From an uncultured bacterium (GTDB lineage Bacteria > Acidobacteriota > Thermoanaerobaculia > Thermoanaerobaculales > Thermoanaerobaculaceae): 38,481 nt of DNA. A program made the translations under genes and the position numbers. The notes beneath the pieces were generated by a model that made no database searches, was not told where the DNA came from, and saw only the letters and a program-made list of their open reading frames with translations. Positions 14,232 to 25,903 of this stretch are shown one piece after another (within the stretch, counting starts at the first letter, position 1; the number at the start of each line of letters is the position of its first letter). Where the stretch lies: NCBI GenBank assembly GCA_937924755.1, contig CALEVZ010000082.1:1-38481 (forward strand), read 5' to 3'.

Positions 14232-16297
<2,066 letters not shown>

Positions 16298-16341
16298 TCA
16301 TCGCTCGTCTTTCGGGGCAACAGGGGAGCGGCCCGTCACCG

Positions 16342-16347
16342 TATACT
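16342..16347 (+). promoter_or_regulatory. Predicted -10 element for a leaderless GT-C mRNA
   Basis: TATACT is followed by seven bases (cacggcg) and then the GTG start at 16355. No ribosome site and no clear -35 element are seen. Confidence 0.55.
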
Positions 16348-16354
16348 CACGGCG

Positions 16355-19300
16355 GTGGTGTTCCCTCGCTTGCTGGCGCTGGCGCCGGTTGCCGGCTTCG
16401 CCGTGCTTTCTGCGACTCTCACGGCGGCGGGGGAGTTGCCGGTGGCGGAGGCGCTGTGGGCGGTGGTGGCCGTGGCCGTCGCCTTCGGCCCCAGTGGCTG
16501 GGTACAACCCGCCGGGTGGCCGCGGCGCCTCGCCGAAGGTGCGCTGCTGCCGGTGGCCTACGCCCTCACCATGCTGGGGGACCCTTCCCTACGGCGCATG
16601 GCCATCCCCCCCCTGCTGCTCCTGGCCGCCTGGGGAGCGGCGGCGGCGGCGCTGGCCCGCGCCCCGTTGGGGTTGGCACCGCTCCTGGCCGGCTCGCTGG
16701 GGGGCGCGGTGCGGGCCGCGGGGGGGTTGGGCCTGATGGGGTACCCCTGGCCACTAGTGGTGGGAACGCTGGTGGTCTGTGTCGCGGTACCGGCGGCGCT
16801 GGCCCGCCGTTGGGGACCACAAACCGGGGTGGCCGCCGCCCTGCTGGTGCCGTGGCTACCCTACGCCGGGCAGCCGGGGCTGCTGGCAGCTGCGGCGGCG
16901 GCAGCCCTGGCCGCCCTGCTGGCCCCCAAAGTGGGTGAGCCACTGGAACCGCTGGCGGCCCGCTGGGTGCCCTCGGTGGCAGCGGCGGCCCTGGTGGTGG
17001 CACCCCTGGCGCCCTGGGAGGGCCTGCCTGTTGCCAGGCTTTTTCCCGCCGCTGGCTGGCTGGCGGGAATTGCCGCCCTCCTCGCCCTGCTGGTGGCGGG
17101 GCGCCACCCCCCCGCCCTGGGTGGGGTGGCGTGGCTGGGGGTGGCCTGCCTGCTCGGCCCTCCCCAGCCAGCCCCCCCCGACCGCGCCGGGGTAACTCTC
17201 ACCCCGGCCGCCCCTGTCGCCGCCCTGCCCCCCGGCAACGGTGAGCGCTACGTGGTCGATCTGGCGCTGGCCAACGCCAGCGGGGTGGCCAGCGGCACCG
17301 CCGTGGCCGAGCTGGCGGTTGGCTTCAGGACCTACCCTCTGCGGGCCGGGGAGGACACCGCTGAGTGGGCGCACCAGCGGGGCGACGTACGCGGTGCCGT
17401 CCTCCACACGCTGCCGCGCTGGCCGGTGTGGCGTCCCCACGGGGAAGGGCGCGGCGCCCTCTGGGGGGTGGGCGGACGGCTGGAGGTGCCGGTCCCTTCA
17501 GGAGTCGTGCCCGAGCTGCGGCGGGCCGGGGACCTCGCTCCCGAGATCACAGTCGCGGTCTCCACCGCCGGACCCTCCCGCCCCACCCCGCCCCGCGCCC
17601 TCATCCTGGCGGACTGGTTGGCGGGGTGCGCCTTGGTGGTGGCAGCCGTGCAGCTCCTCGGCGGTACTTGGCGGCGCCCGGTGGCAGCGTTGCCGTGGGT
17701 GCTGCTGGCGTCCGGAGCGGCGTTGGCGCGGGCGCCGGTAGAACCCTTGGGGCTGCTGCTGGAGCGCCACGGCGTGGACCTCTGCCTGGCCGCGCTGCTG
17801 GCCGCCTGGGTGCCGGCGGCGCGCGGGTGGCTCGCCCGCCGCCGGGTGTTTGCCGCGGCGGCTGTCCTGCTGGTGCCGCTCGCCGTGGCGGCGGCCTTCC
17901 TGCACCCGCCGGGGGGGGATGAGCAGTACCACCTCATCGTGCTGCGCTCCCTGGCAGAGGACCACGACCTGGACCTCGCCAATAACTATGAGCTGGAGCG
18001 CTACCCGGAAAACCGCATCTATGTCACCCCCGTCTGGCTGCACTCACCGCTGCTGGCACTGCTCCTTTCCCCGGGCTACGCCCTTGCCGGCCGCGCCGGT
18101 GCCCTGGCGCTGCTGGGTCTCGCCGGAGCGGCGCTGCTGGCCCTGGTGGCCAGTCTCGCCCGGAGGCTGCGCTGCCCCCCCAACCGCGTCGCGCTCATGG
18201 CTCTGCTGGCGCTGCTGAGCTTCCCTCTCGCCACCTTTTCCTCCCAGATCTGGACGGAAATCCCCGGGGCGCTGGCCGCCGCGGCGGTTGCCACTCTGCT
18301 GTCGGGCGTCGCGCCCGCCTTCCTGCCCGCCGCCGGCCTGGCCATCCTCGCCACTGGCCTCAAAACGCGACTAGCACTCATGGCCTTCCCTACCCTCGCC
18401 GCGCCGCTGAGCGGCCTAATCCGGCAGCGGCGGCGCCTGCGGGGTGCCTTGCTGCTACTGGGGTTGGCGACCGCTGCCGCCCTCGCCCTGGCCACCGCCA
18501 TCTACGGGCATCCCCTCGGGCCAATTCGCCGTTTTCATCATCTCCTCCCGCGGAGCCTGCGGCAGCCGGCCATTTCGTTCGTCGGTCTGATCTTCGATAG
18601 GGCCGGAGGGATGCTTTTCGCGGCTCCTTTGCTGCTTGTCGGGGCGAGCCGGATGGCGACGGTGTGGCGGCGCGCCGCGGCACCCGTCCGTGGCCTGCTG
18701 CTGGGTGGCCTGGCAACTCTGCTGCTGCTGTTGCCCTCCCACGAGTGGTACGGGGGGGGCAGCCCTCCTTTGCGCTACCTCGTTCCGGCGCTGCCCGTCT
18801 TTCTCCTGGGCCTGGCCGTGCTGTGGACGAGCCCGTCGCGGGCGCGCACCGCGGCGATCCTGGCGCTGCCCCCTACCATGCTGGTCTGGTTTGTCTTCGC
18901 CACCCGGCCGCACCTGGCCTTCAACCCCGGGGACGGCGGGTGGTGGCTGGGGGACGCCCTGGCGCGCCGGTTTGCCGCCGATACCCGGGCGTTGTTTCCC
19001 TCCCTTCTTGTGCCCACTGCAGCAGCCCTCTGGGTTCCCCTGGTGGTTGTCCTGTTAACGGCGGCGGGGTGGCTGCTGCTGCGCCGGCGCGCCAGCGCCG
19101 GCCGCACCCTAGGGCGCCTCGCCGTGCCCATCTGGCTGCTGGCAGCTGCCGGGCTGGTGGCCACTTTGGCGTGGCGGAACGACCGGGTGGTGGAGCTGGA
19201 GGCCGCCCAGGTGGTCCGCCGCGGCGGCGCCCCCGAACCTCCCGAGGGGACCTTCTCTCGTTTCTTGCACCGCAACGGCTGGCGCCTGCGCGCAGGCGAA

Positions 19301-19546
19301 GGGGTGAGCGTACCGCTGCGCGTGCCGCCCCGCGCCGGGGTGGAACTGGAAGCCCTTGGCGCCGGCCTGGTGGAGGCAAGCTGGGAGGGGGGCGATCGCT
19401 GGACCGTCCAGGTGCTCACCCCCTCTTTTGCCCGCTTCCCCCTGCCACCGCCCCCCGGCCCCGGTCGACAGCAACTTCACCTGCAGGCAGTCGGTCCGGG
19501 AGAAGGGGAGGTGGTCCTGGATCGGGTGGAGGTCATGCGGCCATGA
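16355..19546 (+). CDS. Very large GT-C-type (GT39/ArnT-like) membrane glycosyltransferase
   Basis: A 1063-residue polytopic membrane protein. Residues 1-280 hold about ten hydrophobic segments. Residues 282-415 are a soluble strand-rich stretch. Two or three more helices lead to the motif GGDEQYHLI with Asp522-Glu523, which resembles the acidic pair at the first external loop of ArnT/GT39 enzymes. About ten further helices follow to residue 940, then a 100-residue soluble tail. GT-C enzymes transfer sugars from polyprenyl-phosphate carriers on the outer face of the membrane. The 520-residue section before the acidic pair is far longer than usual. The GTG at 16355 was chosen because the upstream codons (from 16280) are hydrophilic, and TATACT ends 7 nt before it. 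It heads the polysaccharide operon; the stop overlaps the next start (ATGA). Confidence 0.75.
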   Translation: MVFPRLLALAPVAGFAVLSATLTAAGELPVAEALWAVVAVAVAFGPSGWVQPAGWPRRLAEGALLPVAYALTMLGDPSLRRMAIPPLLLLAAWGAAAAALARAPLGLAPLLAGSLGGAVRAAGGLGLMGYPWPLVVGTLVVCVAVPAALARRWGPQTGVAAALLVPWLPYAGQPGLLAAAAAAALAALLAPKVGEPLEPLAARWVPSVAAAALVVAPLAPWEGLPVARLFPAAGWLAGIAALLALLVAGRHPPALGGVAWLGVACLLGPPQPAPPDRAGVTLTPAAPVAALPPGNGERYVVDLALANASGVASGTAVAELAVGFRTYPLRAGEDTAEWAHQRGDVRGAVLHTLPRWPVWRPHGEGRGALWGVGGRLEVPVPSGVVPELRRAGDLAPEITVAVSTAGPSRPTPPRALILADWLAGCALVVAAVQLLGGTWRRPVAALPWVLLASGAALARAPVEPLGLLLERHGVDLCLAALLAAWVPAARGWLARRRVFAAAAVLLVPLAVAAAFLHPPGGDEQYHLIVLRSLAEDHDLDLANNYELERYPENRIYVTPVWLHSPLLALLLSPGYALAGRAGALALLGLAGAALLALVASLARRLRCPPNRVALMALLALLSFPLATFSSQIWTEIPGALAAAAVATLLSGVAPAFLPAAGLAILATGLKTRLALMAFPTLAAPLSGLIRQRRRLRGALLLLGLATAAALALATAIYGHPLGPIRRFHHLLPRSLRQPAISFVGLIFDRAGGMLFAAPLLLVGASRMATVWRRAAAPVRGLLLGGLATLLLLLPSHEWYGGGSPPLRYLVPALPVFLLGLAVLWTSPSRARTAAILALPPTMLVWFVFATRPHLAFNPGDGGWWLGDALARRFAADTRALFPSLLVPTAAALWVPLVVVLLTAAGWLLLRRRASAGRTLGRLAVPIWLLAAAGLVATLAWRNDRVVELEAAQVVRRGGAPEPPEGTFSRFLHRNGWRLRAGEGVSVPLRVPPRAGVELEALGAGLVEASWEGGDRWTVQVLTPSFARFPLPPPPGPGRQQLHLQAVGPGEGEVVLDRVEVMRP

Positions 19547-20544: not shown

Positions 20545-21653
20545 TGCACGTCGCCATCCTCGGCACCCGCGGCGTTCCCGCCCGCTACGGCGGCTTCGAG
20601 ACCTTCGCCGAGGAGCTGGGCACCCGGCTGGCCGCCCGTGGTCACCGGGTGACGGTCTACACCCGCCGACACTCGGCGGTGCCTGGCCTCGAGCAGTACC
20701 GCGGGGTGCGCGTGCGGGTGCTGGCAGCGCTGCGCACCAAAGCGCTGGAAACGCTGTCGCACACCTTTCTCTCGGTGCTCGATCCGGCCCTGCGGCAGGC
20801 CGACGTGGTACTGCTGTGCAACGCCGCCAACGCGGTGTTCATCCCCCTGCTGCATCTCCGCAGGCTGCCGGTGGTGCTCAACGTGGACGGCCTCGAGCGC
20901 AAGCGGCGCAAGTGGGGCCCACTGGCGCGCCGGTACTACCTGCTGTCGGAGCGCCTGGCAGCGCGGTGGGCCGATGTGGTGGTCAGCGATGCCCGGGTGA
21001 TCCAGCGCTACTACCGGCGGGCCTGGCGGCGGTGCTCGGTCATGATCCCCTACGGCGGTGACCTCCCGCGCCCTCGCGGGACCTCCACCCTGGCGGCGCT
21101 GGGGTTGCAACCGCGAGGTTTTTTCCTTTATGTCTCCCGCTTCGAGCCGGAGAACAACCCCGATCGGGTGGCCGAGGCGTATCGGCAGGTCCCCGGCACC
21201 GTACCGTTGGTGCTGGTGGGCGGGGCTCCCTACTCCCCCGCCCTCACCCGGCGGGTGCGGGCGACGGCCGCCGCCGACCCCCGCATCCTCCTGCCCGGCC
21301 CCATCTACGGGGAGGGCTACCGCGAGCTGTTGTTCCACGCCCGCGCCTACATCCACGCCACCGAGGTAGGCGGCACCCACCCCGCCCTGGTGGAAGCCAT
21401 GGGCGCCGGCCAGCTGGTGTTTTTCCTGGACAACCCCGCTAACCGGGAGGTGGTGGGCGAGGCCGGGGTGGATTATCGTTTTGACGGCGAGCCGACCCTG
21501 ACCCAGGTGTTGACCGAGTACCTGGCCCATCCGGCGCTTTATGATCCGCTGCGGGCCGTGGCCCGCGCCCGGGTGGCTGACCGCTACCGCTGGGACAGCG
21601 TGGCGGTGGCCTATGAAAGGGTGTTGGAGGAGGCGTGCTCCGGGATTCGGTGA
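20544..21653 (+). CDS. DUF1972 / GT4-family glycosyltransferase
   Basis: A 369-residue GT-B enzyme. The N-terminal MHVAILGTRGVPARYGGFETFAEEL is the hallmark of DUF1972 glycosyltransferases. The C-terminal half has YVSRFEPENNPD (donor site), GPIYGEGYRELLFHARAYIH, and EVGGTHPALVEAMGAG with the Glu pair of GT4 enzymes. Members are often rhamnosyl- or hexosyltransferases in capsule and O-antigen loci. The ATG at 20544 shares one base with the upstream stop (TGATG). The 3' end overlaps the next start by 19 nt. Confidence 0.92.
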   Translation: MHVAILGTRGVPARYGGFETFAEELGTRLAARGHRVTVYTRRHSAVPGLEQYRGVRVRVLAALRTKALETLSHTFLSVLDPALRQADVVLLCNAANAVFIPLLHLRRLPVVLNVDGLERKRRKWGPLARRYYLLSERLAARWADVVVSDARVIQRYYRRAWRRCSVMIPYGGDLPRPRGTSTLAALGLQPRGFFLYVSRFEPENNPDRVAEAYRQVPGTVPLVLVGGAPYSPALTRRVRATAAADPRILLPGPIYGEGYRELLFHARAYIHATEVGGTHPALVEAMGAGQLVFFLDNPANREVVGEAGVDYRFDGEPTLTQVLTEYLAHPALYDPLRAVARARVADRYRWDSVAVAYERVLEEACSGIR

Positions 21654-23065
21654 GGGTAGTGGCCTACCGACGTCTGCTGGTGGACGGGTTGGCCACCGTG
21701 GGCTCCTTCCTGCTCGCCCATCAGCTGCGGTCTCACCTCCTGCCCATCCTGCTGCCCTCCCTCTTTCCCGGTGGGCTGTACCCCCTGCGCCAATACCTTC
21801 CGCTGCTGGCCGTGGTGCTGCCGGTATGGGGTGGGTTGCTGGCCGCCCATCGACTGGCCACCCCCGGGGCTGTGGTATCGCTGCGGCGGGAACTGGTGCT
21901 GGTGGCGCGGGTGGTGGCCCTCGGCGTCGGCTCGGTGGCGGCAGCTTCCTACCTGTTCCGGGTGGACTTCATCTCGCGGCCCTTCTTGCTGCTTTTCGCC
22001 GCCACCAACTTTGCCGTCCTGGCGGCGCTGCGCGTGGCCGAACGACGCACCGCCTGGGGGCGGGCGCTGCTGGAGGCGCCGGAGCGGGTCGTGGTGGTGG
22101 TGGGAGATGGCCCGCGGGCGCTGGAGGTGGCCCAGCTGGTGGAGGGCTACCGCCGGTGGGGATTCCGACTCAAGGGGATGGTCACGGTGGCAGGCGAGCC
22201 CGAGGCCCCGGCCGGGCCATTTCCTCTCCTTGGCAGCGTCACCCATCTCCCCGAGATCCTCACCCGCTCGGTGGTGGACGAGGTCATCCTGGCGGTGCCC
22301 ACCCGCCAGCTGGGAGAGTTGGAGGACGCCATGTTGCAGTGCCAGGAGCTGGGGGTGCGGGTGCGGGTGGCGCTGCAGCCCTTTCCCCACCTCTCCCCTC
22401 GCCTGGAGGTGGAGACCCTCCAGGGAGTGCCGTTCCTCACCTTCGCCACCTCTCCCACCGCCCCCTTGCCCCTCTTCGCCAAGCGGGTGATGGACGTGGT
22501 GGTGAGCGCTGCGGCGCTGGTTCTCTCCTTGCCGCTGTGGCCCCTCATCGCCCTGGCTGTCCACCTTTCCTCCCCGGGGCCGATCCTCTACCGCCAGCAG
22601 CGCTGCGGGCTTTACGGGCGGCGCTTCACCCTGTTGAAATTTCGCACCATGGTGGTGGACGCCGAGGCCCGCCAGCAGGAATTGGAGCACCTCAACGTCG
22701 TCAACGGGCCGGCCTTCAAAGCGCCCAACGATCCCCGCGTCACACCCGTCGGGCGGATCCTGCGGCGTTTTTCCCTCGACGAGCTCCCCCAGTTACTGCA
22801 GGTCTTGCGAGGGGAAATGTCGCTGGTGGGCCCCCGGCCGCCCATTCCGGCGGAGGTGGAGCGCTACCAGCCCTGGCAGCGCCGGCGACTGGCCATGAAG
22901 CCCGGGATCACCGGGTTGTGGCAGGTGTCCGGTCGTTCGGACCTGGACTGGGACACCTGGATGGAACTGGATTTGACCTACATCGACTCCTGGTCCCTGT
23001 GGCTCGACATCACGATCCTGCTGCGGACGATCCCGGCGGTGCTGTCGGGGCGGGGAGCCGCCTGA
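21635..23065 (+). CDS. Exopolysaccharide polyprenyl glycosylphosphotransferase
   Basis: A 476-residue membrane enzyme that transfers a sugar-1-phosphate to undecaprenyl phosphate and so starts a repeat unit. Four to five N-terminal helices (residues 10-130) precede a Rossmann-like CoA-binding_3 domain (VVVVVGDGPRALEVAQLV, about 150-270). The C-terminal catalytic domain starts with the hairpin FAKRVMDVVVSAAALVLSLP and contains SPGPILYRQQRCG, LLKFRTM, SLDELPQLLQVL, MSLVGPRPP and KPGITGLWQVSGRSD, all diagnostic. The GTG at 21635 follows ggagg. It is the last gene of the operon, and its 3' end overlaps the convergent gene by 56 nt. The first-sugar enzyme being last in the operon means flippase and polymerase genes are not in this cluster. 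Confidence 0.95.
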   Translation: MLRDSVRVVAYRRLLVDGLATVGSFLLAHQLRSHLLPILLPSLFPGGLYPLRQYLPLLAVVLPVWGGLLAAHRLATPGAVVSLRRELVLVARVVALGVGSVAAASYLFRVDFISRPFLLLFAATNFAVLAALRVAERRTAWGRALLEAPERVVVVVGDGPRALEVAQLVEGYRRWGFRLKGMVTVAGEPEAPAGPFPLLGSVTHLPEILTRSVVDEVILAVPTRQLGELEDAMLQCQELGVRVRVALQPFPHLSPRLEVETLQGVPFLTFATSPTAPLPLFAKRVMDVVVSAAALVLSLPLWPLIALAVHLSSPGPILYRQQRCGLYGRRFTLLKFRTMVVDAEARQQELEHLNVVNGPAFKAPNDPRVTPVGRILRRFSLDELPQLLQVLRGEMSLVGPRPPIPAEVERYQPWQRRRLAMKPGITGLWQVSGRSDLDWDTWMELDLTYIDSWSLWLDITILLRTIPAVLSGRGAA

Positions 23066-23945
23066 GCTCGATGCGTACCGTGCCGGAGCGGACGTTGCTG
23101 GTCATGCGCTCCTGCCCCCAGAGGTAGCCCTTGGGCGCCCGCGCCTGCGGAGCGCCCGCCCAGGCCAGGGCGCCTCCCCCGGCCACCGCCAGCAGGCCAG
23201 CCAGCAGGATCGCCCACCACCCCGGCGCCCGCCGGCGCACCAGCGGGGCATGGGTGACGAACCAGGCCGAGGTTACCACCGCCAGCCCCGCCACCCCGCC
23301 CGCCACCAGCGCCGCCGCCGTCCGCGGGTGCCACCCCTTGAGAAACACGGCGGCACACCACAGCGCCAGGGGCACGCCGGCGTGTAGCAGGGGGACGAGC
23401 ACCCTCCGGCGGCGGGTGGGGCCGCCGGGTGCCAGCCACAAAGGGGAGGCCAGGCGCAGGGAGGCCATGGTGGCTCCCACCACCCCGGCGCCGGCGGCGA
23501 AGAGCACCACCGCCAGGCTGGGAAGGCGCCAGAACACCTCCAGGCCCGCCGCTGGCCCGTCGCTGACCCCCAGCGGCGGCGCCCATCCCAACCCCAGGAC
23601 CGCCGCCGCCGTAGCGAGGTGGTAGACCCCCAGCTCGCTCAGCCATCCCTGGCCAGACGGCATGAAGGGTGGTAGCAGCAGCGCCAGCAGCAGCGGCAAC
23701 AGGAGAGGAGGGAGCCAGTAACCCAGCAGCGCCTCACGGGTGGCGGAGAATCCCACGTCGGGCTGGTTGACCAAAGCCCAGGGTTGCGCACCCCATGGGG
23801 CAGAAAGGCCGATCCACTCGCCCCCCACCGCCGCCGCCCCCACCCCCTGGGAAACGGGGATCAGCAGCCACACCAGCGGCCACAGCACCGCCGCCAACAG
23901 CCACGAGAGGAGAAGTACTCGCACCTGCAAAGGATGGCTGATCAC
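23010..23945 (-). CDS. Multi-pass membrane protein of unknown function
   Basis: A 311-residue protein with about seven hydrophobic segments, for example residues 8-30, 75-92, 108-122, 140-160, 185-202, 213-232 and 243-262. A periplasmic-looking loop (GGEWIGLSAPWGAQPWALVNQPDVG) sits after the first helix. I do not recognise a family. The GTG at 23945 lies 6 nt downstream of a -10-like TATGAT and has no ribosome site, so the message is predicted to be leaderless. It is divergent from the M16-like gene; the start codons are only 17 nt apart. The 3' end runs 56 nt into the convergent polysaccharide gene. Confidence 0.75.
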   Translation of the reverse strand: MISHPLQVRVLLLSWLLAAVLWPLVWLLIPVSQGVGAAAVGGEWIGLSAPWGAQPWALVNQPDVGFSATREALLGYWLPPLLLPLLLALLLPPFMPSGQGWLSELGVYHLATAAAVLGLGWAPPLGVSDGPAAGLEVFWRLPSLAVVLFAAGAGVVGATMASLRLASPLWLAPGGPTRRRRVLVPLLHAGVPLALWCAAVFLKGWHPRTAAALVAGGVAGLAVVTSAWFVTHAPLVRRRAPGWWAILLAGLLAVAGGGALAWAGAPQARAPKGYLWGQERMTSNVRSGTVRIELRRLPAPTAPPGSSAAGS

Positions 23946-23950
23946 CCTCG

Positions 23951-23957
23951 TATCATA
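23951..23957. promoter_or_regulatory. Symmetric bidirectional -10 element (two leaderless genes)
   Basis: The heptamer TATCATA reads TATCAT on the plus strand and TATGAT on the minus strand, each five of six matches to TATAAT. On both sides exactly six bases separate the hexamer from the start codon (GTG at 23945 minus, ATG at 23963 plus). Neither gene has a Shine-Dalgarno sequence, and any upstream element of one promoter would lie inside the coding region of the other gene. Confidence 0.65.
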
Positions 23958-23962
23958 CCCCC

Positions 23963-25903
23963 ATGGTCAGACCCTTGCTTGCCATGCTCTTCGCCCTTTC
24001 CACCCCCTGCGTGGCCGTCGCCCAGGCGGTCACCGAGTGGTCCACCAGTCGGGGGGTGGCGGTGGCGATCATCGAAGTGCCCGGGGGCGACCTGGTTCAC
24101 CTGGCCGCTTTGGCCCCGCCCGAGACCACCGTCCCCGCCGTCCTGGCCGGCTTCCCGGTCACAACCCACCCCGTCTCCCTGGGCCTGATCGTCGAGAGCA
24201 GCGTTCCGGTCTTCGCCGGTGGGACGGCGCTGCGGGAGTTGGCCCTGGCCGTGTCCGACCGGGGGGCGGCAGCGGTGGTCGTTTTGGGCAGTGCGCCGGC
24301 GCGGGAGATGGGCGTGGCTGGCCAGGCCCTGGAAAGAGTGCCCCTGGCCGCCGCACCGCGACGGCCATGCCTGCTGGCCGAGGGAGAGGTGTCGCTGGTG
24401 CGCGGGTCCCCCGAGCGCCTGGAGGTGGTCCTGCCCCTCCCCGGGCCAGAGGATCCCCGCTTCGACCTTCTCCCGGCCCTCGAAGCGTGGGTGCGCCGCC
24501 GGCTGGCGCAGCGCTGGCCGGGAGTGTCCACCGCCGTGGAGCTGCGAGATACATGCTCTTGGTTGCTCATCCGCGTCCCCTCCGGCGGCGAGCCGCCGCG
24601 GACCCAGCTGGCGCCGCTGCGCGAGGCCATCCAGTTGCTGGCGACGACAGCCCCCAATGCCGCCGAGGTGGAGGCGGTAGCCGCCATGGTCGACCGCCGA
24701 CGAGCCGCCTGGGCGGTGGACGGGCGGGCGGCGGCGCGGGAGCTGGTGCTGCGCCGGGCGGTAGGGGGGCGGGTTGCGTCGGCGCTGGCGCCGCCGCTGC
24801 TGGACTCCGACGCGCTGGCCGGCCTGGCGCGGGGGGTGCTCGCCGGTCATGTGGGCGAAGCCGTGCTGGTGGAGGCCGAACGCCGCCCCGTCGATGATGC
24901 CCCGGAGGTGTTGGACAACGGCGTGCTGCTGGCCTGGCGCTGGGTCTCTTCGTCCCTGGGCACGGTGGCGGTGGCGCTGGGGGGCGTCGACCCCGACTTT
25001 GGCCACGCGGCGTTGCGGGGCCTGGCCGATGAAGCGGCCCGGGAAGGGTGGCAAGCTCTCCTGGAGACCCTGGCTGGGGTTCCGGCGGCGGCTGTGGCCG
25101 TGCCTGCCGACGACCTGCCGGCCGCCCTGGAAACCGTTGCCTCGGTGCTGTTGGAGCCCGCTGTGGCGGCTGGGCCAGAGCGGGAGAGCCAGTTGGTGGC
25201 CGCCCTGGGGCTGTCCGCGGAGCTCACCGGCGGGGCGGTGGCAGTGGCGGTGGCAGCGCCCGCCGAGGCGGATGTGGTGCGGGAGGCGGCGGCGAAATTC
25301 TTCAGCCAGTTGCCGCCGGGCAGGGTCCGAAGTACGGCGCCACTGGAAAAGGGACTCCAGCACTCCAGCACCACCGGCGAAGCGACGATCCAGGCGGCGG
25401 TGGAGCTCCGCCCCGATCTCGCCGGCTGGCTGGCCGGGGAGGTCTTGGCCAACCGCCTGCGGCAGCACGCTAGGGCGCAGGTTCGCTGGTTGGCTCTCCC
25501 GGGGCGCCTGGTGCTGGAGGTGACGGCCCGCGCAGAAGGGCATGTGCCAGGCCTTGACGCCCGCCTGGCCGCCCTCTGGCCGTCGCTGCGGGTTGCCGCC
25601 AGCGCCGAGGAAGCGGCCGCCGCGGGGGCATCGCTGCGGGCATTATTGTACGGCGACCCCGCCCGGGCGGCGCTGCGCACCGCCGCGGCGCCGTTTCTGC
25701 CTACCTTGCCGCGCCAGGAGGAACTGTTAGCCGTGGAGGCGCGAGAGGTATCGGCAGCGCTGGCGGCGTTGCCGCCCTGGGCAGACCTCCCGCGCCTGGC
25801 CCGAGGGCCCGAGCCATTGCTGGTCACCCCTCCCCCTCGGCCCACTGTGCGACAATCCCCGCCCCGACGCCCTGGAGGGGCGGGGGGAGGGAGCTCATGG
25901 TGA
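23963..25903 (+). CDS. Secreted protein with degenerate M16 (insulinase)-like architecture
   Basis: A 646-residue protein with a signal peptide (MVRPLLAMLFALSTPCVAVAQ). Two segments resemble M16 peptidase halves: VVREAAAKFFSQLPPG matches the helix-turn that closes an M16 domain, and WLAGEVLANRLRQHAR resembles the subunit-interface helix. The zinc motif HxxEH and its inverse are absent, so if it belongs to the family it is the non-catalytic partner. No second M16 gene lies in the window. The ATG at 23963 is 6 nt after TATCAT, suggesting a leaderless message. The 3' end overlaps tyrS by 7 nt. The family assignment is tentative; the reading frame is sound. Confidence 0.6.
   Translation: MVRPLLAMLFALSTPCVAVAQAVTEWSTSRGVAVAIIEVPGGDLVHLAALAPPETTVPAVLAGFPVTTHPVSLGLIVESSVPVFAGGTALRELALAVSDRGAAAVVVLGSAPAREMGVAGQALERVPLAAAPRRPCLLAEGEVSLVRGSPERLEVVLPLPGPEDPRFDLLPALEAWVRRRLAQRWPGVSTAVELRDTCSWLLIRVPSGGEPPRTQLAPLREAIQLLATTAPNAAEVEAVAAMVDRRRAAWAVDGRAAARELVLRRAVGGRVASALAPPLLDSDALAGLARGVLAGHVGEAVLVEAERRPVDDAPEVLDNGVLLAWRWVSSSLGTVAVALGGVDPDFGHAALRGLADEAAREGWQALLETLAGVPAAAVAVPADDLPAALETVASVLLEPAVAAGPERESQLVAALGLSAELTGGAVAVAVAAPAEADVVREAAAKFFSQLPPGRVRSTAPLEKGLQHSSTTGEATIQAAVELRPDLAGWLAGEVLANRLRQHARAQVRWLALPGRLVLEVTARAEGHVPGLDARLAALWPSLRVAASAEEAAAAGASLRALLYGDPARAALRTAAAPFLPTLPRQEELLAVEAREVSAALAALPPWADLPRLARGPEPLLVTPPPRPTVRQSPPRRPGGAGGGSSW
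25857..25885 (+). repeat. GC-only stem-loop directly before the tyrS ribosome site
   Basis: Nine-base perfect arms CCCCGCCCC (25857-25865) and GGGGCGGGG (25877-25885) enclose an 11-nt loop. The right arm abuts the GGAGG ribosome site at 25886-25890, 6 nt before the tyrS ATG. It lies inside the last codons of the M16-like gene. It could control tyrS translation or act as a processing stop. Confidence 0.5.

Follow-up and report, generated by a model that had tools for sequence, protein, structure and literature searches.

A symmetric -10 element as the probable shared promoter of two divergent leaderless genes in the Thermoanaerobaculaceae

Two divergent genes were found with start codons 18 bp apart in the stretch of DNA analysed here (the window, 38,481 nucleotides; C82 among the 86 contigs that make up a 3.35-Mb genome). 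In a first-pass annotation, a single symmetric -10 element was proposed to drive both as leaderless genes. That proposal was retained as the best reading of the sequence, given the invariance of the element in 17 of 17 family genomes, the leaderless signature of the genome and two recurrences of the element at other loci. We put at about 85% the probability that TATCATA is a bidirectional promoter from which leaderless or nearly leaderless mRNAs are made on both sides.

The anatomy of the site was confirmed from the sequence as it had been annotated (Table 1). The heptamer contains a five-of-six match to the -10 hexamer TATAAT on each strand. On the plus side, TATCAT is followed by six bases (ACCCCC) and then by the ATG at 23963; on the minus side, TATGAT is followed by six bases (ACGAGG) and then by the GTG at 23945, and the whole intergenic region is indeed 17 bp. 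The -10 is near-symmetric, in that T23956 and A23952 of the plus strand pair with the A and T of the minus promoter, and these positions are invariant in 17/17 genomes. T at -18, which is frequent and not required in bidirectional promoters, is present for the minus promoter (position 23963), and the plus promoter has C (23945).

Table 1. Features of the divergent locus, in window coordinates
Feature	Position	Strand	Remark
Locus sequence	CAC (23943-23945) CCTCG TATCATA (23951-23957) CCCCC ATG (23963-23965)
Putative shared -10, palindromic TATCATA, centre free	23951-23957	both	TATNATA in 17/17 family genomes
Putative plus-promoter -10 hexamer, TATCAT	23951-23956	+	-7T = 23956, -11A = 23952
Putative minus-promoter -10 hexamer, TATGAT	23957-23952	-	-7/-11 reciprocally paired with those of the plus promoter
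Intergenic region, 17 bp in full	23946-23962		only the six outer bases of the heptamer invariant in relatives
ATG, putative +1 of the plus mRNA	23963-23965	+	from spacing; 5-6 bp from TATNATA in 17/17
GTG, putative +1 of the minus mRNA	23943-23945	-	from spacing; ATG/GTG at 5-6 bp in 17/17
Plus gene, 646-aa secreted protein	23963-25903	+	predicted M16 (pitrilysin-like) fold, no HxxEH
Minus gene, 311-aa multi-helix membrane protein	23945-23010	-	no family assigned

Conservation of the site and the leaderless signature

Seventeen genomes of the family (Thermoanaerobaculaceae, Acidobacteriota) could be examined; they belong to one family and hence are not independent. Family and class relations of all compared genomes were used as given by the search tool. 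By sequence comparison, both ORFs were confirmed as real genes, with orthologues of both keeping the divergent order in the 15 relatives with an intact locus and beginning at the equivalent codon. The N-termini of the minus-gene orthologues align from the GTG at 23945. A Shine-Dalgarno-led start of the minus gene at a downstream TTG/GTG was ruled out because the orthologues begin at the equivalent of this GTG.

TATNATA lies between both starts at every intact locus, at 31-44% protein identity. The pattern CAY-N5/6-TATNATA-N5/6-RTG was matched exactly once in each of the 17 family genomes, compared with 1 of 17 genomes for the reversed-pattern control. These matches adjoin the plus-gene homologue in every family genome except G016, where the site is at a contig end (C322), a fragment of the gene is on another contig and the site sequence is that of G012.

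Conservation of the 17-bp spacer in related genomes, which had been suggested as a check, held for part of its length across the 17 genomes: the heptamer is fixed at its six outer positions, while its centre (C in 5, G in 12) and the spacer flanks vary. G occurs two places before the heptamer in 16/17, the window being the exception. The symmetry of six bases on either side, true of the window, did not generalize; it occurs in only 3/17 genomes and is no requirement. The gap from heptamer to plus start is 5 bp in 16 genomes and 6 bp in 1, and that to the minus start is 6 bp in 14 and 5 bp in 3, so that the starts are 18 bp apart in 3 genomes, 19 in 13 and 20 in 1. Most relatives thus have the minus gene 1 bp farther away, at 7 bp from its hexamer, where a leader of one base may be made.

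In the plus gene, fourfold-degenerate sites compared between the window and each relative were at or near composition-expected identity (saturated), so that shared ancestry alone does not account for the constancy of the heptamer. On this comparative evidence, the element is genuine and under selection for a control function rather than coincidental.

The probability of TATNATA at a fixed place was about 1.6e-5 (from upstream base composition), and just 3 copies of the heptamer were counted in 806 kb of the window's genome. The looser TANNNTA with both spacings was in no excess, with 4 sites in the genome and likewise 4 for its reversed control; judged from ORFs and translations, each of the remaining three is flanked by a gene on a single side. 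The loose pattern was dropped as a signature for both reasons; it is conservation that raises the site above chance. Two one-sided TANNNTA sites, at L039 (1501-1523) and L041 (1501-1523), mark likely leaderless genes of the same genome, one nadC-like with a GTG start and one M64-peptidase-like with an ATG start, both named from their translations.

Genome statistics were calculated over the same 806 kb (40 stretches plus the window), in which a simple GC3-based gene caller gave 559 genes and 2009 candidate starts. TANNNT was located exactly 6 bp before ATG/GTG 39 times, compared with a mean of 6.0 (s.d. 2.2) at other distances, with smaller rises at 8 bp (15) and 9 bp (14). This is a clear signature, by which the genome would be one that makes leaderless mRNAs, and both sides of the window site have its peak spacing of 6 bp.

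Among the 37 other promoters with 6-bp spacing (this locus excluded), the third base was T in 8, A followed the hexamer in 7 and TATNATA was found in none, and 21 had G two bases upstream of the hexamer. The symmetric bases are therefore not normally needed for one-way transcription, and their fixation in the family argues for use in both directions. This is the main argument for a bidirectional promoter.

Neither a -35 element nor a Shine-Dalgarno site was evident. Best matches to TTGACA at spacings of 15-19 bp averaged 2.6 (plus) and 2.75 (minus) of 6 across 16 loci, compared with 2.56 at random places. In the family sequences, neither start is preceded by a visibly conserved Shine-Dalgarno site. 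None precedes the plus gene (read from the sequences, with no separate score), and on the minus strand of the window GAGG abuts the GTG with no spacing, which is wrong for a Shine-Dalgarno site; the relatives are without GAGG.

Recurrence of the element and alternative explanations

A total of 119 genomes of the class were scanned with the pattern start-5/6-TATNATA-5/6-start, and two unrelated, conserved divergent pairs elsewhere in the class were found to carry the TATNATA element. Gene names at these pairs are a reading of the sequence made with no family search, rsmI (16S rRNA methyltransferase I) being named from sequence motifs. In the first pair, rsmI and a SurA-like gene diverge in 8 genomes of a sister family (L093, L095-L101; site at 1501), both with GTG starts 5-6 bp from TATNATA and with a start distance of 18 bp in 7 and 19 bp in 1. 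The element reads TGN-TATNAT in both directions in 8/8. Other sister-family genomes are without it, and G022 has a one-sided TACACT towards rsmI.

In the second pair, which belongs to another family of the class (L162-L178), TATNATA lies between divergent genes for an acyl carrier protein and a small membrane protein in 17/17 genomes. The distance to the partner start is 5-7 bp in 15 genomes and that to the carrier-protein start 5-9 bp, usually 8 bp from the heptamer and 9 bp from the hexamer; leaders of zero to a few bases may be made at this locus.

We would give even odds to a wider reading, in which Acidobacteriota of this class make standard, selected use of a symmetric -10 flanked on both sides by leaderless or near-leaderless genes. 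On that reading the arrangement would have evolved three times or more, and its promoter, equal to the whole intergenic region, would tie the two genes to coupled and mutually exclusive firing. A phylum-wide scan matched 86/297 genomes, but the control also matched in many, many of the listed sites were AT-rich and the gene pairs there were not looked at, so the claim is confined to the class.

Of the other explanations, the one that survives best is a leaderless promoter acting in one direction, with the other gene transcribed with a normal leader from inside its neighbour. One-sided cases do exist, namely the TACACT of G022 and the three TANNNTA sites in the window's genome. However, the base that would serve only the other direction is invariant in 17/17 genomes, yet A is present there in just 7/37 one-directional -10s, and both starts hold 5-6 bp in all family genomes with no visibly conserved Shine-Dalgarno site before either. 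We therefore consider transcription in one direction unlikely.

Palindromes between divergent genes are often operators, as in lysG/lysE, and the symmetry of TATCATA could in principle derive from binding of a dimeric regulator rather than from two -10s. A dimeric helix-turn-helix site would, however, be expected to exceed seven base pairs with six fixed, and conservation in the family hardly extends beyond them. The heptamer also matches the -10 consensus on either strand, at the spacing that leaderless genes of this genome prefer, and is common to unrelated gene pairs, which makes an operator origin of the symmetry quite improbable; a regulator could still bind over TATCATA. A chance or inherited coincidence without function, to which the parity of loose TANNNTA with its control might point, has a negligible probability and is refuted as far as sequence allows by 17/17 conservation despite saturated synonymous sites and by recurrence at two other loci.

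Proposed mechanism and its relation to known promoters

Under the bidirectional reading, the housekeeping RNA polymerase would use one set of seven base pairs, TATCATA, to bind in either of two opposed orientations, as -7T/-11A of one promoter pair with -11A/-7T of the other. In each orientation, transcription would begin with the initial base of a start codon (ATG at 23963, GTG at 23945), and the products would be two leaderless mRNAs, one for the M16-fold secreted protein and one for the membrane protein. Only one polymerase at a time would be accommodated on the site, with the upstream contacts of each promoter falling inside the first codons of the other gene. Neither a 5' UTR nor a Shine-Dalgarno site would fit, nor would an operator beyond the promoter; given this and the overlapping contacts, expression of the pair should be coupled, with the -10 itself as its determinant. 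We infer the transcription starts, translation from the 5' end (at the first codon) and mutual exclusion of polymerases.

The nearest precedents are bidirectional promoters with symmetric -10 elements (Warman et al. 2021, as cited in PMC10268837). Their divergent starts are 7-25 bp apart, most commonly 18 bp, with -7T and -11A reciprocally paired (PMC10268837; PMC12825309), and opposing polymerases are unable to occupy them simultaneously (PMC12825309). The first-pass view of the locus as extreme was consequently not borne out as regards the start-to-start distance, since 18 bp is the commonest spacing of transcription starts in such promoters (PMC10268837; PMC12825309). The start codons, 18 bp apart in the window and 18-20 bp in the family, would lie within this range, and those of the window at its mode, if they are also the transcription starts.

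The site resembles bidirectional promoters in its shared near-palindromic -10, the 18-bp distance between its putative transcription starts (19 in most relatives), the lack of need for a -35 and the expected steric exclusion. It differs in that the +1 positions here should coincide with the start codons, the promoter would be the entire intergenic region and both mRNAs would be leaderless; leaderless mRNAs are unmentioned in PMC10268837 and PMC12825309, which deal with bidirectional promoters.

The bacterial leaderless signature is TANNNT about 6 bp upstream of the start (PMC3160421). As in leaderless genes of Actinobacteria and Deinococcus-Thermus (PMC3160421, PMC3898074, PMC12340547), the -10 here adjoins the start, with no -35 and no Shine-Dalgarno site. 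In those groups the element serves one gene, whereas here one element would serve two, and divergent or bidirectional use is unmentioned in the paper on Deinococcus-Thermus leaderless genes.

Two divergent pairs of Mycobacterium tuberculosis come close. Rv1129c and prpD (Rv1130) are divergent neighbours for which both mRNAs are reported as leaderless, and the passage concerned in PMC3898074 does not report a shared -10. The lysG/lysE genes (PMC5648196) are likewise divergent, with overlapping promoters and one leaderless transcript, but differ in having a 108-bp intergenic region, an operator-like palindrome and no single -10 between two start codons. No description of one symmetric -10 serving two leaderless genes was found in the literature searched, in which few subscription papers were covered. 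Taken singly, both bidirectional promoters and leaderless genes are familiar; their combination, conserved and recurrent, is the unusual part.

With the promoter filling the gap, the locus would offer a minimal natural system in which one polymerase site shares its output between two genes, with no UTR, -35 or separate operator to confound the question of how output is shared. The pattern start-5/6-TATNATA-5/6-start may additionally be used as a search signature for such pairs in genomes without RNA data.

The two encoded proteins

The plus protein has a signal-peptide-like N-terminal start, and its predicted structure (mean pLDDT 85.2) has the M16 fold (pitrilysin / insulin-degrading enzyme / FusC; best E 1.2e-21). 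TM-scores were low, about 0.3, perhaps as a result of differing domain placement. The HxxEH zinc motif is absent from this protein and from its relatives, and the protein is probably a non-catalytic M16 relative. Across 59 genomes including that of the window, homologues were present in 16/16 other family genomes and in 0/42 genomes outside the family.

The minus protein is predicted to be a long-helix membrane protein (mean pLDDT 86.7), and its predicted structure matched no PDB fold at E ≤ 0.001. Searches by sequence against Pfam and PDB assigned neither protein to a family; matches to PspC (E 0.0046) and DUF6505 (E 0.04) were discarded as coming from single members only. Elsewhere in the window, a 1088-aa ORF at 16280-19546 had no Pfam match, and a 528-aa ORF at 21541-23127 (+) would overlap the minus gene tail to tail by 118 bp (23010-23127) if both are real.
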